DNA of 64,000 nt from NCBI GenBank assembly GCA_963281155.1, contig CAUJLY010000003.1, forward strand, positions 992,001-1,056,000. The letters are read 5' to 3'. This DNA is from Rhabditophanes sp. KR3021. Its lineage: Eukaryota > Nematoda > Chromadorea > Rhabditida > Alloionematidae. The notes below the pieces were generated by a model that was not told the DNA's origin, did no database searches, and worked only from the letters and a program-made list of their open reading frames with translations. This document shows positions 16,682-59,030 of this stretch, piece by piece (position 1 is the stretch's first letter; every line of letters starts with the position of its first letter). A program made the position numbers and the translations under genes.

Positions 16682-16754
16682 TGATCCCGGGCGGTCTCGA
16701 TCCGCCGGCCTTCTGTGTGTTAGACAGATGTGATAACCACTACACCACGGGAGC
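16682..16754 (-). tRNA. tRNA-Val (anticodon AAC), slightly defective
   Basis: Folds into a full cloverleaf of 73 nt. The anticodon stem TCTGT/ACAGA encloses loop CTAACAC, giving anticodon AAC (Val). The D arm GTGT...TCAC and T stem GGCGG/CCGCC are intact, and a T-run follows the 3' end. Two deviations stand out. Acceptor pair 2:71 is C.U instead of a Watson-Crick pair. The T-loop starts with A instead of the near-invariant T54 (ATCGAGA), which also alters the internal promoter B box. It may therefore be weakly expressed or decaying. Confidence 0.8.
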
Positions 16755-16848
16755 TTGTGCTATAAAAGAAGTTTCATTTTTATTTAGGTGTTTATGTATC
16801 AATTTTTGAAAATAATTGACGTAATTATAATTAATTGCCAAAAAGATA

Positions 16849-16921
16849 TGCGTCCGAGGGGGAATCGAACCCCTATCGCGTGCTTGGAAGGCGCGCATGC
16901 TGACCATTACACCACGGACGC
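16849..16921 (-). tRNA. tRNA-Gly (anticodon UCC), slightly defective
   Basis: The 7-bp acceptor GCGTCCG/CGGACGC is perfect. The anticodon loop CTTCCAA gives anticodon TCC (Gly), and the T-loop TTCGATT is canonical. The anticodon stem has a C.A mismatch at 29:41. The 3' strand of the T stem has five Cs opposite four Gs, so the best fold leaves one base unpaired or bulged. It lies 94 bp upstream of tRNA-Val in the same orientation. Identity is secure; function is less so. Confidence 0.82.
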
Positions 16922-19562: not shown

Positions 19563-21162
19563 CTATTTTTCATTTCTTTTAAGGGCAGAAGCGATAGCAT
19601 CAACGCATTGGTCAACATTTTGTTTGTTAATGCACATTGGTGGCTTAATTCTGAGAACATTTCCTTTAGCACCACCTTTTCCGACAAGGACACCTTGATC
19701 TTTGATATCTTCAAAAATGGCTGCACTTCTATCGCTTGGTAAGAATTTACCTTCTTCATCAATCATTTCGAAACCAATCATCAAACCTTTTCCACGTACA
19801 TCTCCGATCAACTTGCTACCAATGTTGTTTAATTCTGTAAGGAAGTAATCTCCGACCTTTTCTGAATTTTCTTGCAATTTTTCCTCTTGAATAACATCGA
19901 TGACGGCTTTTCCGACTACTGAAGCCAAAGGATTCCCTCCGAAGGTATTAAAGTACAAAGCTTTTCCTAGTGAAGCAGCAATTTCCTTGGTAGTCACACA
20001 AGCTCCGATTGGAAAACCATTTCCCATACCTAGTCAAAGAATAGCATTATTAAAAAATATATGACTTAACTCAAAACGAGTAACTTCATTTTTAAATTGA
20101 TGATTACAATCAAATTATGTATTTAAAACATCCTGATATTGGCAAAAGAGTCAGTGAACTTGCTCTTAAACAACTTTTTGGCCCTAAATCTTGTGATTTA
20201 TTTTTTTATAATTTTTGTGCAATAAACTCTGAGTTTTTGTTTAAATTCACCTTTAGCCATTGTCACAATATCTGGCTTAGCATCTTGACTTTCGAATCCC
20301 CAGAAATGACTGCCCATTCTTCCGAATCCAGTTTGTACTTCATCACTAATACATAACCCTCCCTTGGATTGAACTAATTCGAATGCTTGTTTCAACCAGC
20401 CTTTTGGGTATTGCACTGTACCACCAACTCCCTGAACACTCTCAACCAAAAATCCAGCTGGACCGGTTGATGCAGGAAAATCAAATTCGACTGTTTCTCT
20501 AAATTGTCTAAAGTATTGGTCGTTGGCGTTACATTGGTCTGGGCCACAATCGCAATCTCTGTTGGTTTGAACAATAGAATCACGACAATCACTTCCTCCC
20601 CATGGTCCGACATAAGGATCTGGACACATTGCCTTCAAAATACCGAAGCCAGAAGGCATGGGTTGTTTCCATGATCCGATGTTAACAGCTCCTAACAAAG
20701 TTTGAGTCATTCCATGGTAAGAATTACGAAGTGTAAGTAAATCGAATCTTCCAGTGTGTAATCTAGCCAACTCGATAGCTAAATCATTGGCTTCACTTCC
20801 GGAGTTGGTAAAGAAAACACAGTCGAGATGCTTTGGCATGGTGGATAACAATTTTTGAGCATACTCGTAAATTGGTTCAGTATGATAGATTGATGTTGTG
20901 TGCCATAGTTTGTCGGCTTGAGCTTTCAATGCAGCACCTACTTTCGGATGGCAATGACCAACACTGACTGTGACGATTCCTCCAAACCTAAATTATGAAT
21001 TAGATCATACAATTTGATAATTCTAAATTACATATCCAAATATTTTTTGCCCTTGTCATCAAACAAATACTGCATTTCTCCTCTCGTGATCAAGAGTTGA
21101 TTTTTGTAATATGTTACCATTGATGGTGGTAACAAAGGTCTTAATTGCTGGACACGATTCAT
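19563..21162 (-). CDS. AGXT2: Alanine-glyoxylate aminotransferase 2 (class III, PLP)
   Basis: Transfers amino groups between alanine (and beta-aminoisobutyrate or dimethylarginine in mammals) and glyoxylate or pyruvate. Exons 21032-21162, 20251-20987 and 19563-20029 join in frame to 444 residues. Class III aminotransferase features are in order: MFGGIVTVSVGHCHPKV near 43-59, NSGSEANDLAIELAR, SYHGMTQTLLGA, DEVQTGFGRMGSHFWGFES, and VTMAKGMGNGFPIGA with PLP lysine at about 289. The run from QYPKGWLKQAFELV to VRGKGLMIGFEM closely follows mammalian AGXT2. The family enzyme is mitochondrial, but this model starts at MNRVQQLRP with no evident presequence. A TTTTAG acceptor lies 8 nt before the ATG, so a spliced leader or an unseen upstream exon is possible. 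Confidence 0.93.
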
Positions 21163-46878: not shown

Positions 46879-49800
46879 TTACTTTTGTTGAGCAGTAGGC
46901 TTCGGTTTTCGCTTCCTAAAGCAGCAGCACTTTACTTCTCCACTGAGGTTGTCCTCTTGGTGATTGTTGCGTTCTTGGCGGAGGTTGGGTTCGATGATGT
47001 CATCCATATTTGAGGACATGATTTGGTTGGAACCAAACCCTCCGACGGCTCCACTGCCCCCTGGTCTGAGCCCGTCTTCGCGGCGACCGGTGGCCGATTG
47101 TCTTGTTTTATTAGTGGCGTCGTTTTTGTTGACATTTGAACTACTGACATCTACAGATGCGTGTGTAGAACCTGAAGGAGTTGAGGCATGATTCAACTTT
47201 GGAGTCCAGTCAAATTCATAATCATATGTACATCCGAGCCTTTCTAAAACTGCCTTAAATAAATTGAAACAATAATCATAATCGGGTGTTTCGAAGAAAT
47301 CGAGTCGTCTCGAGTATCTTAAATATTGAGCAAATTCATCTGGAAAGCCATCGCAAAGCACCTCCACCGGAGTTATCCTCTTCGTGTCCCCAATCTTTTG
47401 GTATCTTTCTTTAAGAGTGTCGGCTTTAAGTCCTTGCCAAGGCAATGAGCCTCTTAAAAAGTACATAAACATGTGTCCTAAAGCTTCAAGATCATCTCGC
47501 CGACTTTGTTCTTTTCCCAAATGTGTGTTGATTGACATGTAACGAGCAGTTCCAGTCAATGATTTGTGCTCTCGATAAGAGATGTGTTTGCCTGTACAAA
47601 ATACAATTAATAACTTTCTTTCAATTAGTTACTTTGTTAAGCTTTTAACTACAAGTTTGCTCTAAGTTACATCCAGAAGTTGCTTCCAACTAAACCACTT
47701 TAACTTAAATACATGTCTTACTCATATTATCCCATATCTAATCTGTGATACCACCTACAACACCAAAATGGTATCAGTATACTAATTAAAAGGTACAAAC
47801 ACCACATTCAATTAACTAAAGTTCTTTTCTATTTATCTTTACAAAGTTCATTTCATAGCCATTAAATATGATATCACTTAAGCTGTTTCCAATTTAAACG
47901 TATAGTATTATAAATATTATACATAAAGTAATTGACAGCAGATTGTCACTAAATACATTTAGATGAGTCTGAAGAAGCGACACACATTTTTGGGTCACAG
48001 AGTCAGTGGAAAATTCAAATGTCCAGGTAAATTATGGGTGTGTGAAAGTAGTGTTTATCAAACCTGCCAAATTAAACGGAGCATGAAACGACACGTTCCG
48101 TTAGTTCCGAAAGGAACAAGAACTAGAGCTATTGGAAAGACAGAATAAAAGTTGTGACGGTATATGGGGATGATCTGTATGTGAGTCAAGCACTTGGTTT
48201 GGAGTACACTATCGTGATTGAGGACAATCAAATCAAGTGGTGTATTTAAAAGATGTGATGTTGTCAAGAATCAGCGAACTTGGCATCAAAGAAATTTGTG
48301 CCAAAATATGTTCGAATGTGATATCTTTTTAATTTTGAGTATTTGTTTAAATTTACCCTAAAATAAAATAATAGTTATTATATTATGAAGAAATAGAATT
48401 ACCGTATCACAATCAATGTACTCCTTTGCTAATCCAAAGTCGATGATATGGAGAATGTGCTGTTTTCTCGTGGAGGACCGTCCAATTAAAAAATTCTCCG
48501 GCTTAACGTCTCTGTATATCAAGTGCTTTGAGTGAACGAATTCCATTCTTCTGATCAATTGCATTGCCACCATACAAACCGTCTTTAGAGTAAATTTGCG
48601 ATCACACATGTCGAAGAGATCTTCCAGGGAATTACCAAGCAATTCCATTACCAAGGCGTTGTACTTGCCGCAAGGGCCAAAGTAGTGCGTTTGAGGAACA
48701 CCATCACAAGGACCCATCAATTTGTAAAATCTATACTCCAGGTGAAGTTGTGGAGCTTTACTTTTCATGGGTTCCAGTTTGACAGCTAATCTTTCTGAGT
48801 TGTACAAGTTGGTTACGAGTCTGATTTCACCTACAAATAAACAAACAATTTACTCTCTAACCAACCAAAAAAGACGATGAAAACGATAAACGATTACATC
48901 ATCAACCAAACTCACCAAAATTGCCCGATCCTAATTTCCTATTACTGATACGAAAGTTGGGTCCAACCATCATGACGGAGTTGGACGCACTAGAAGCGCT
49001 CTTCGGATTAGCCATCGTTTGTTGGGAAAGACTATAAAATAAGGTAAAAATATACAAAAATAGCTGGTGTATAGATTTTTAAATAAATTTAAAGTTAAAG
49101 CTATTTATCTGTATATGTTTCCCATCTATCATTCTTCCAATCTGTGTAAGAAAAAAGGAAACGTTGGCGGTGGGAGTCGAGACAGACACTTTTTATCTAG
49201 ATTAGTATTTGGAGATAGTTCCTTTGGATGGCAATCAACTTTTTATTTATGGTAGTTAGAAAGGTGATAACTGGAAGATAATGGAATGGCAAAGGATCAC
49301 CATAATACACATTTGTTTAATTAATCTCTCAAAGTCGCTTTTTATTTAAAAGAAATATGCATATTTTTTGTAAAGAATGGATAATAAGTTAGTGAATAAC
49401 AACTTTAAAAGCTCAATCTTGACAACAAAAGGTGTAATAAGTTACTCAAAAAGCGGATGTTAGGTGTCATAAATTAATAAAAAAGTGAGTGCTTTTAGCG
49501 TAGGAGTATAAGATACTTTAAAAAAGAATCCGTTACTAAGGAAGTGTTTGACGCATTTTTAAAGTTAATGAATTAATTGCAAACATACCCTTCTCTATTT
49601 TCTGATCGCAGATCGTACTGGCTGTGTGAGCCTTCAACTTCGAAATTATCAGTCAAACCGATGACCGTGGTTGATGTTGGTGGATTAATATCTCCAATGA
49701 TAACTTTGTTAGTTACCTTGCCTTTTGGAGAGTGACGGGATCTATTACGAACCGAGATTCCTTGAGTTAATCCACTGAAAGCAGGCAAAATGAGCAAAAT

Positions 49801-52731
49801 AGATAACAAATGATTAGAAGCCGACTGAGATAACAACTAGTACAAAGGTGTATCAGTGCTCGAGACAACCGACTAAAACATACACATCCCCCAAAAACGT
49901 ACCTTAACAGTGCTGAGGACCGTGATCTTGTGACGGCAGATCCTGAACGAAACCTGGAAGCTAGTTTTGCTTTAGTTGAAGAAAGATTATTGGTTGGTAA
50001 GGTAAGTTGGCCGTGATAGTGGTGTTTGTTAGTTGACGACGTCCGTTGCGTCGATGAAACCCGTCTACAAAAAGACAAACACAATTAATATGATCATTTA
50101 GGTTTATTTATTCAAAAGACACAACCACACTTTTTTTGGCATAACAAATTAACATGTCGATATGTTAACGTATGCATGATGGTCTGACTAAGGGATAGAA
50201 GATCGATTGTTGGGTGGTTGTTAATAGATAATATTATAATTGAAGTATATAGCGCAACCACCTATCTTCTAATCAAATAAAAATAAATATTACAACTTAG
50301 TGTACATAAAATAATACCCAACTCTCTTATTCCCAAAATAAAATTACCTATTAATTAAGGCCATCCAATTACAATATTTGCAAATACATATTATTTATGC
50401 ACACACACACATACCAACAAAATAAATACATAACGTCTAAGGAAAGAAGAAGTAAAAAATATAATTATGTGTACAGTTTGTACTTTTTGAAATTAAATGG
50501 ATGTTTTGGCTACTATTTTTGGTCAAAAGTAACGTAATAAAGAGATGATGGATAGTGATGGTAGCGATGAAAATTTTATTAAAAAGTGTTGTTTGGGTGA
50601 GGGACCGTGTGCGGCGCAATGAAGTCGTTAAGGAGTGATAGTGCAACAGTAAACATGATAGAAAAGCAGTCCAGACAAACAATATTTCTTTAAATTTGGA
50701 TAGATATTTGTAGTTTTGAATGTTATGAGTCTTATCCTTAAAAAGGGTCAGTGAAGGAGATAGGGCCTGATAACTTACACACCTATTTGTGCTATTTTGT
50801 ATGATTTGATGAATTTGTGAATATCATTCATCTCAGAGGAAGTAAGCAATTAGGCAAACTGTCGTGTCCTGTACACACACTGATTGAAGCATGAAATAGC
50901 TAATGGAGAGGGCTTAAGTTAGAAGAGAAAGAAATGTTATTTGAATAATGGCTGGCCCCAAAAAAGTGTATAATATATCTTAAAAATAATATTAATATTA
51001 AATCTTAAAGTGGCGGTGGCAGCCACTCAGGCAAAAAGTGGTGTGAGGCCTTTTTAGCCACCAATTTAAGCAAGACAATAATTTAGGGAGAAGAATGGTG
51101 AATGTTTGAATGATCACAGACTACTATCTGCGTTTGCTTAGTGAACAAAAGTACCTACAAGTTGAAGATGCTTTCAAATAAAATTGATTATGATTTGCAA
51201 AAGATGATGATAAAATAAATATTTGGGTGCGCATATAGTATATATACGTCGACAAAGATAAATAAATTTGTACATTATATAATGGAAGCTGACAAAAATG
51301 AAAGCGTTACGTTAGCTTTTTGTTTTTTGCCAAACTTTATCTTTCCTTTTGAGTCTGCGATAATAAAGGATTGCTATAGTTACAATAATATATAATATTT
51401 TTAATTCAAACACGATATGTGAAATATAGAATATTTAAAATACAAAAACTATTTCAACTATTTTGTGGGTAATTTGTTGTTTGCAGAGGAATGTATAAAA
51501 TACATATGTTAGTTATTGTAATGTTTTATTTTAATATATTCTAATATGTTTGAATCTATGTGATATAAAAATAAATAAACTCTCATGTCAATTTTAATCA
51601 TAAAGGAATTATCTCTCTAAACTCTTTTAAACAGACACCACTAAATAATGTATAAATGATATCAAAATAATATATAGAGTCGACGATACTTGTTGCATGT
51701 CAATAGTAGTTGGTCATGGTTAAAGTAATGGCATTAATTGCGGACACTAAAAAATAGAAGACATCTACGATCAATGTAGGTACAAACAAATATCACTGCA
51801 AGTGCATACCACTCAATTCACAAACAAAATATACCGTCCTTTCAACCATTCAATACTACATCTCGAAGATAGTATCATATGAATAATATAGTAGTAGCTG
51901 TTTGCTTTCTCTTACAATAAAGTAAGATAATGCACATATAAATAAATAAATCTACAAAGAACTGTCAAAAAAGTCTAAATAACAGTACAATAGTGCAGAT
52001 TATCATATGCACACTTACTTATTTGTGACAAAATCAATGAACATTAATGTCGCGTTTTTTGTTCAAAAACCTATTTTCACACACTTTATAAATAATTATG
52101 TACGAATATAATACTCCAATATATCATCTCTTACACACATTAACAATCGACAAACATTCTTATAACTGAGAATAAAGATCATACACAACGGGTTATTATA
52201 ATTTGAAGTGAAAATATTATAATATTGACAGGGTATCTGTGGCCACGAACGCCTACTTAATCGGAGTGACATGTTTCTTTTTACATCAAATGCTTTTTTA
52301 ATTAAACTAAAAATTTAAAAAAGGGTCAGGAAAGAGAGGTTGTCGTTATGATTAGCGATAAACAAATAAAAAATAGTGAAAGCATTAAAAAGTCGCATTT
52401 TGGTATTGATTGTTGTTTGATACATAACTATGATACAGTTTACCCCTCCTGAATGTATCATTCAATTTAAGCTATCGAAAAAAAGATGTTGCATCTTGGT
52501 GAGTCATTTCGAGGATGTCAACAGGGTACTTAAAAATAAATATTGAGGATAAGATGAATGTATGACTGGGTGGGTGATATTAGGACAACAATTTAGACAA
52601 TATAGACACATTAACATTTATCGGAATACACCAAACCATCCCATCATTTGGGAGGGATCAAGGCAAACTCACCGTTCAGTTGAATGGGATTCTTTGTTTG
52701 AAGATTTATCGTTCATCCGTAGTAATAACAT
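46879..52731 (-). CDS. csnk-1: Casein kinase 1 gamma with N-terminal extension
   Basis: Membrane-anchored Ser/Thr kinase. Exons 52673-52731, 49903-50064, 49589-49774, 48916-49031, 48403-48830, 48357 (one base) and 46879-47591 total 1665 nt, 554 residues. Residues 1-141 are a Ser/Thr/Arg-rich extension before the MANPKSAS start usual for the family. The kinase domain has [12 protein letters not shown], Lys 192 (AVKLEPMK), YRDVKPEN (Asp 282), DFGLAKEY (Asp 305) and the CK1-specific LTGTARYMS. The tail ends [11 protein letters not shown], the Cys-basic palmitoylation signal of the gamma class. The donor after Thr 317 is in phase 0 and the next clear acceptor (47591) is in phase 1. A single G at 48357, flanked by TTTTAG and GTAAAT, closes the frame as T-G-K, the family residues. 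Introns 1 (2.6 kb) and 6 (765 nt) are long. A shorter isoform could start at 49015. Confidence 0.88.
47963..48249 (+). pseudogene. Coding-like fragment in a CK1 gamma intron
   Basis: On the strand opposite the kinase gene, inside its last intron. A 61-codon frame ([20 protein letters not shown], later [20 protein letters not shown]) stops at 48148. The next frame continues with [33 protein letters not shown] and a stop. The two halves read like one small basic protein with one frameshift and no intron between, as for a retrocopy. No family is recognised. Confidence 0.4.
50065..52672 (-). other. Long first intron of casein kinase gene
   Basis: A 2.6-kb GTGAGT...TTTGTAG interval between the first two exons, unusual in a locus where most introns are about 40 nt. 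It is AT-rich, with a CA repeat near 50400 and no recognised nested gene. Such first introns often carry enhancers or alternative promoters; nothing here proves that. Confidence 0.6.
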
Positions 52732-58948: not shown

Positions 58949-59030
58949 ACCGCGATGGCCGAGCGGTTAAGGCGTTGGACTTAAGTTCCAATCCCATTAT
59001 GGGTCGTGGGTTCGAACCCCACTTGCGGTA
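58949..59030 (+). tRNA. tRNA-Leu (anticodon UAA)
   Basis: A canonical 82-nt class II tRNA. The acceptor ACCGCGA/TTGCGGT has seven pairs including one G.U. The anticodon stem TTGGA/TCCAA encloses CTTAAGT, giving anticodon TAA. The long variable arm has stem CCCA/TGGG, and the T arm GTGGG-TTCGAAC-CCCAC is perfect. A run of seven T follows directly and would terminate Pol III. No intron is present. Confidence 0.96.

Follow-up and report, generated by a model that had tools for sequence, protein, structure and literature searches.

The question raised by this locus of Rhabditophanes diutinus (the same nematode as R. sp. KR3021; PMC7738172) is how the kinase core of its csnk-1 gene is spliced to the downstream exon, when the two exons are out of frame with each other if joined directly. 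The window, i.e. the whole stretch of 64,000 nucleotides that was analysed (contig CAUJLY010000003.1, positions 992,001 to 1,056,000), carries csnk-1 on its minus strand, and all csnk-1 coordinates below refer to that strand. The gene was found to be casein kinase 1 gamma, as its top PDB matches are CK1 gamma isoforms (to 1.7e-157). Exon 1 (52673..52731) has the donor GTGAGT and an N-terminus like that of the Strongyloides-clade proteins P0003 and P0004, and it is followed by exon 2 (49903..50064), exon 3 (49589..49774) and exon 4 (48916..49031). Exon 5 (48403..48830) forms the kinase core and ends with GAT ACG at 48403, in phase 0, at a GTAATT donor (48402). Exon 7 (46879..47591) begins in phase 1 at 47591 (KHISYREHK), after TTTTGTACAG, and runs to the stop codon. 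Both of these phases had been claimed in the first-pass annotation of this DNA and were confirmed.

That annotation had filled the 811-nt gap between the two exons with an exon of a single nucleotide, a G at 48357 flanked by TTTTAG and GTAAAT, and the flanks were found to be as described. On its upstream side lies a mini-intron of 45 nt (48358..48402, GTAATT...TTATTTTAG), the first G of which we take to be a borrowed host G, and on its downstream side a long intron of 765 nt (47592..48356, GTAAAT...TTTTGTACAG). In translation, direct joining without the G gives the predicted frameshift, with a stop 11 codons beyond DCDT, whereas with the G the seven-exon coding sequence of 1665 nt is open to a single terminal stop (554 amino acids plus stop). 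The candidate exon 48357..48357 would supply base 1 of the Gly codon GGC, which among the NGC codons is the only one for Gly. The further claim that no other GT donor precedes a stop holds within the 45-nt interval. The gap as a whole has 2 AG-N-GT sites, and altogether 21 micro-exons of 1 to 46 nt with GT-AG borders would keep the frame open, so that openness of the frame by itself is weak evidence for 48357.

In a scan of 264 kb, both strands included, the acceptor at 48357 outranks 99.8% of all AGs. The 45-nt length of the mini-intron is ordinary, as short introns are usual in this region (38-49 nt in 31 of 40 introns selected from the 264 kb), the self-trained sets of 6, 49 and 40 introns being small and partly circular, and usable for lengths and not for donor percentiles. 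GTAAG dominates among the short introns of the 264 kb and GTAAT donors are not enriched there, so the first csnk-1 donor (GTAATT) is not a strong one. A simple HMM for introns was dropped due to over-prediction (2970 introns). The second AG-N-GT site would give a one-nucleotide exon at 48208 (a T), which yields Cys and has a poor acceptor. An upstream GTGATA donor was ruled out by conservation, its product EYID-C-KH losing conserved residues.

Comparison with homologues, of which 120 were listed out of 7987 matched, has shown that CDTGKH is present in 36 of the 120, and those of the 36 that are named by a source are nematodes. The Thr-Gly-Lys obtained with the G, put forward earlier as the residues expected in the family, is thus indeed that of relatives. 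The spacing from LAKEY to YREHK is ten residues in 119 of the 120 listed homologues, and the one that departs from it is P0001, a publicly deposited protein from Rhabditophanes sp. KR3021, which has a 98% match to the protein of the window. From MANPK onward P0001 is the same as the window protein apart from the insert LLIVFCT, which is the translation of the DNA immediately before TTTTGTACAG/GC (the slash marks a splice boundary); its acceptor AAAG/TTATTAATT preserves the frame. P0001 begins at this MANPK, inside exon 4, and is without the N-terminal exons common to its Strongyloides-clade relatives. A single intron ending at this weak acceptor, with a 7-residue insertion, is the deposited model, and it is extremely improbable in our opinion: the insertion is missing in the other 119 of the 120 listed relatives and falls in a conserved kinase loop, and the acceptor context TAATTGAAAGAAAG is without the T-rich stretch found upstream of AG in the selected introns. 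An annotation fault is thereby exposed, as the public csnk-1 model avoids the frameshift via seven residues that its relatives lack.

The UniProt proteins of KR3021, P0001 among them, were presumably derived from an older, independent assembly. Indels are a typical fault of Nanopore assemblies, and it may be asked whether the assembly has lost a base close to the junction, the real csnk-1 having a single ordinary intron. The KR3021 version 2 assembly was made from Nanopore reads and polished with Illumina (PMC10676810), which leaves room for such an error. P0001 argues against it, because the reading of this protein, with the same frameshift dodged by LLIVFCT, settles how many bases there are at the acceptor, and we judge an assembly error to be very improbable also in view of the other loci described below. 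The predicted one-nucleotide exon at 48357 is the best-supported reading of the csnk-1 junction.

The site had also been described as a near-recursive splice point, and this description was borne out, since it is homologous to the AG/GT ratchet-like sites of a dispersed intron-like element. The first ~320 nt of the gap match this element (48069..48391, 65-79% identity). A DNA search of the genome (44.8 Mb, six contigs) with the csnk-1 gap gave 22 matches including itself, at 19 further places, and the remainder of the gap (48068-47592) had no match in that search. In the best copies the homology crosses the ratchet site, as seen for the copy L033 with TCTAATTTTAG/GTAAACAAAACAACAAAATTAAAAAG against TTATTTTAG-G-GTAAATTTAAACAAATACTCAAAATTAAAAAG in csnk-1, and TTTCAGGGTAAATTTAAACAAA, which differs by one base from the version in csnk-1, is present at three other places. 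Similarity at E 1e-3 or better links csnk-1 to 33 of the other copies; at the same threshold, 50 of the 51 places that were read besides csnk-1 match another copy, and L074 does not.

All the family ratchet 30-mers tested (18 of 18, being those long enough among the 20 copies then collected of class 0, which is defined below) align best at the csnk-1 site (48363-48367) within the gap. Their mean score of 34.1 against the csnk-1 gap is to be compared with 24.1 (sd 1.6) for dinucleotide shuffles, none of 300 reaching 34.1; none of 635 other 811-nt genomic stretches reached it either, the best one being close at 33.7. The mini-intron core of csnk-1 resembles nine class-1 mini-introns (P 0.018, in a test run afterwards) and was not significantly similar to those of class 0 (P 0.10). 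Neither the comparison of the csnk-1 far end with the family (P 0.11) nor the search for a target-site duplication in csnk-1, with a decayed form considered (P 0.13), reached significance.

The dispersed element is introner-like in its make-up, consisting of apparent introns of similar sequence at unrelated positions. The copies L033 and L036 have 1,029 aligned nt in common at 96% identity with sharp ends; terminal or target-site repeats were seen by eye in these two and are not consistent. Many copies adjoin coding exons, several of them in conserved genes, and their far ends show a CTAAT-like motif and pyrimidine-rich sequence, then AG. In ten hosts, Pfam or PDB matches span the junction, as is expected of in-frame removal from coding sequence. 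The family includes copies of ~1 kb with antisense reading frames as well as shorter copies without the mini-intron; the antisense frame in L033, zinc-finger-like in appearance, had no Pfam match.

When the left ends were read at the 51 places besides csnk-1 (loci within L033-L103), two spacings of the ratchet were found. In class 0 (27 places) the AG of the mini-intron directly abuts GTA[AT], which amounts to a zero-length exon; csnk-1, with its one nucleotide, differs from these 27 copies in that respect. Class 1 (12 places) has AG-G-GTAA as in csnk-1. The remaining 12 places fall in neither class and comprise L074 and 11 copies that lack a ratchet (L049, L053, L054, L055, L057, L061, L063, L086, L093, L094 and L095). 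The mini-introns are 41-48 nt long where a donor was assigned (25 class-0 and 10 class-1 copies, against 45 nt at the same position in csnk-1), donors not being assignable in L039, L042, L070 and L073. A 36-mer of the class-0 mini-intron was found at 11 genome places at up to 3 mismatches, as against 0 for the reversed-pattern control, and all 11 belong to the 27 class-0 copies, each being followed by the ratchet. A looser class-0 ratchet pattern, with 50 genome matches versus 23 for its control, served only to pick copies. Nine of the 12 class-1 copies were found by a pattern demanding AG-N-GT, and the spacing itself defines the class; the near-identical paralogues L067 and L068 are both counted in class 1, and L065 and L073 match the element family over 36-55 nt only.

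The two classes also differ at the first donor. G occupies position -1 in 24 of the 25 class-0 copies and in 4 of the 10 class-1 copies with an assigned donor (P 0.0008), a contrast that is inflated because exon ends were assigned by hand and G/GT was favoured in class 0 among several GTs. The first donor begins with GTA or GCA in all 10 class-1 copies and in 8 of the 25 of class 0 (P 0.0003). Both contrasts are predicted if class 1 borrows a host G.

The reading frames of the host genes provide a test of the spacing. Six of the seven class-1 hosts tested, csnk-1 included, need exactly the extra G, whereas none of the five class-0 hosts tested (L033, L034, L035, L043 and L092) needs an extra base (Fisher P 0.015, and again 0.015 without csnk-1; P 0.048 for the best-supported hosts only, 5 of class 1 and 2 of class 0). 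The count leaves out L067, L069, L070, L071, L073 and L084 of class 1; in L069, L071, L073 and L084, and in L082, L087 and L090 of class 0, the next exon was unrecognised. L036 of class 0 was read by eye and is likewise uncounted.

Among the hosts that need the G, csnk-1 is joined as ACG/G/GC AAA (Thr-Gly-Lys). Isovaleryl-CoA dehydrogenase (IVD, L072) reads ATG CA/../G/../GGA AAA ATG (MQGKM), and the joined protein aligns to 1ivh over 121 residues gap-free, with FQLMQGKMADMY identical. The SLC26-like gene (L065) reads CCA CAA/G/GT ATT GCG (PQGIAY), with a gap-free junction against an SLC26/prestin structure and a weak acceptor (AATAAAG). Junctions that are gap-free against solved structures were also obtained for a carboxypeptidase (L088; GCA/G/AT TTG CTG, ADLLY) and for WDR35 (L091; ACG/G/GA TTA AAA, TGLK), and in an unnamed gene (L066) TTA CCA/G/GA GAC AAA opens a frame of 186 amino acids. 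In the class-0 hosts no base is needed in Fzr1/Cdh1 (L092, gap-free join), tRNA-synt_1e (L043, Pfam 9.5e-15 across the junction), ankyrin (L033, 4.9e-15), the C-type lectin Lectin_C (L035, 6.4e-9) and E1-E2_ATPase (L034, with a weak Pfam value of 4e-4). The OTU host (L063), which has a copy without a ratchet, gives a Pfam match of 1.6e-10 across the element.

The exception, L068, contradicts the class-1 rule: AG-G-GT is present, yet by our reading TCG/../GGC TTT is in frame without the G. We take its host to be a GDSL/phospholipase gene, a tentative label which, like those of L073, L082, L084, L087 and L090, was given by motif; no Pfam match was obtained for the hosts of L066 and L068. L067 (C2:6826242) and L068 (C3:7498767) carry the same AG-G-GT element at 98% over 310 nt, and the donor of L067 is GCAAGT.

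What the DNA shows directly is the ratchet site, the element family, both of its spacings and the phase required by the hosts tested. The one-nucleotide exon of the first-pass proposal is supported as a reading, and it is no isolated oddity, as AG-G-GT is found at 12 further places and five hosts besides csnk-1 need the G. The same finding weighs against an assembly error at csnk-1, for the one-base offset is seen again in five further class-1 hosts and in none of the class-0 hosts tested.

A different account of the junction has a single non-canonical intron, TAATTC...ACAG (or GTAATT...TACA), in which the host G is exonic and a one-nucleotide exon does not occur. Its mature mRNA would be identical, and the same shift accounts for all six hosts that need one base; a cDNA reading ACG-G-GCAAAC is consequently no proof of a one-nucleotide exon, since a TA...AG or GT...CA intron yields the same mRNA. 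Nevertheless, it leaves unexplained why AG-G-GT stands in these hosts and mostly AG/GT in the tested hosts that need no base, as well as why a strong acceptor lies one nucleotide from a GTAA donor about 45 nt into the gap, and TA-AG and GT-CA introns violate the GT-AG rule. We regard this account as unlikely.

It may also be supposed that the ratchet is bypassed or that csnk-1 is decaying, with a truncated kinase or two isoforms as the outcome. Skipping of the G leads to the stop 11 codons on, and L068 is in frame for direct splicing, both of which agree with such a course. On the other side, the 554-aa frame is intact and a second CK1-gamma-like locus was not found in the genome, where the runner-up by E-value has 35% identity and the CK1-like pieces at C4:2837488-2839952 reach 40-61% identity to csnk-1 only in parts. 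Bypass or decay is held to be quite improbable, although a partial bypass may occur.

We consider it probable that the csnk-1 gap is a composite, introner-like intron which is removed by two splicing steps, and in which the one-nucleotide exon returns a borrowed host G. The gap would have arisen long ago as one copy of a composite intron that is mobile in R. diutinus. A class-1 element, starting with T, would insert after a host G, so that this G and the T form the GT donor of the mini-intron; the mini-intron of ~45 nt would end at TTTTAG, to be followed by one G and then by the long part, which would have GTAAAT as its donor and its acceptor at the far end of the element. Two-step splicing, probably of the mini-intron and then of the long part, would leave one G in the mRNA, and this G would replace the borrowed one to give ACG-G-GC AAA, i.e. 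Thr-Gly-Lys. Removal of the mini-intron first would create exon-G/GTAAAT, a plausible donor for which no exon definition is required, and the reverse order would also be workable. Beyond what is seen in the DNA, we infer that both introns are actually removed, that they are removed in this order and that insertion is the origin of the arrangement. A class-0 element would bring its own GT, and its AG/GT ratchet would add nothing. An earlier idea, in which the exon had lost one base and the ratchet had gained one in compensation, was abandoned once the class-1 copies were found, which made a deletion unnecessary.

On balance, and with more reserve, we favour the wider reading that this is a mobile intron family with a built-in adapter, made up of the ~45-nt mini-intron and the ratchet, in which the spacing of the ratchet (0 or 1 nt) matches the amount of host sequence borrowed for the donor. 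Class 1 would then be seamless after any G and would spread one-nucleotide exons, in at least six genes. If the adapter reading is true, skipping of the ratchet could switch a host gene off.

In the available text of the sources, nuclear one-nucleotide exons are in print for Arabidopsis APC11 (Guo and Liu 2015, PMC4674806) and for Fusarium CYP621A (Nelson and Syed 2026, PMC12940212), the abstract of the latter describing its case as the second example. In placozoan mitochondria an exon of one base has been reported, and plant micro-exon catalogues mention sizes of 1-15 nt. As in csnk-1, the exon of APC11 stands between AG and GT and restores the frame, and its authors favour intron definition plus recursive, sequential removal. 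APC11 is one plant gene with mutational proof, and the available text mentions no mobile element, whereas the R. diutinus exons are proposed in several genes of an animal from sequence alone. The CYP621A exon shares with csnk-1 the AG-G-GT, a position within a Gly codon, and support from frame and conservation; it is backed also by RNA reads, in contrast to csnk-1, for which genomic sequence is the source. It is known from orthologues of one fungal gene and is explained there by a base loss and a cryptic exon, whereas in R. diutinus the AG-G-GT is common to unrelated genes by way of dispersed copies of an intron-like element.

Introners (Gozashti et al. 2022, PMC9860276) are like the R. diutinus element in being similar introns that occupy many new positions and carry splice signals. 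Among animals and land plants they were found in two groups only, both animal, and 'nematod' is absent from the main text of that paper as available; the R. diutinus copies differ from the introners described there in their internal exon of 0 or 1 nt. The [D1,2] stwintrons (PMC12403724, PMC8469720) are also composite, need two consecutive splicing reactions and in some cases propagate within a genome. In them, however, the external donor is interrupted by the internal intron between its G1 and T2, whereas in R. diutinus the GT donor is intact and comes 0 or 1 nt after the mini-intron, behind the ratchet AG or AG-G. The Drosophila ratchet points (Joseph et al. 2021, PMC8605326) share with the present sites an adjoining acceptor and donor, used for stepwise removal in Drosophila and putatively so here, but they lie in long introns, whereas the sites of R. 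diutinus come ~45 nt after the start of a repeated element, with one nucleotide in between in one class.

In a literature search with subscription papers and most preprints outside its range, neither one-nucleotide exons in animal nuclear genes nor introners in Rhabditophanes were found to be reported. As far as these searches reach, a mobile family of one-nucleotide exons is new; if the reading is true, this would be the first such family, and its members would be the first one-nucleotide exons in animal nuclear genes. One-nucleotide exons, introners and recursive splicing are brought together here in a culturable, free-living nematode, in which it can be put to the test whether spliceosomes routinely remove a pair of introns that are zero or one nucleotide apart. 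Elsewhere in the window, a short second piece of the element family lies at 20108-20180 on the minus strand (74% over 73 nt). A search of the whole window against Rfam at gathering scores gave only three tRNAs, none of them near the csnk-1 intron; these are the Val-AAC, Gly-TCC and Leu-TAA genes, located at 16682-16921 and 58949-59030.
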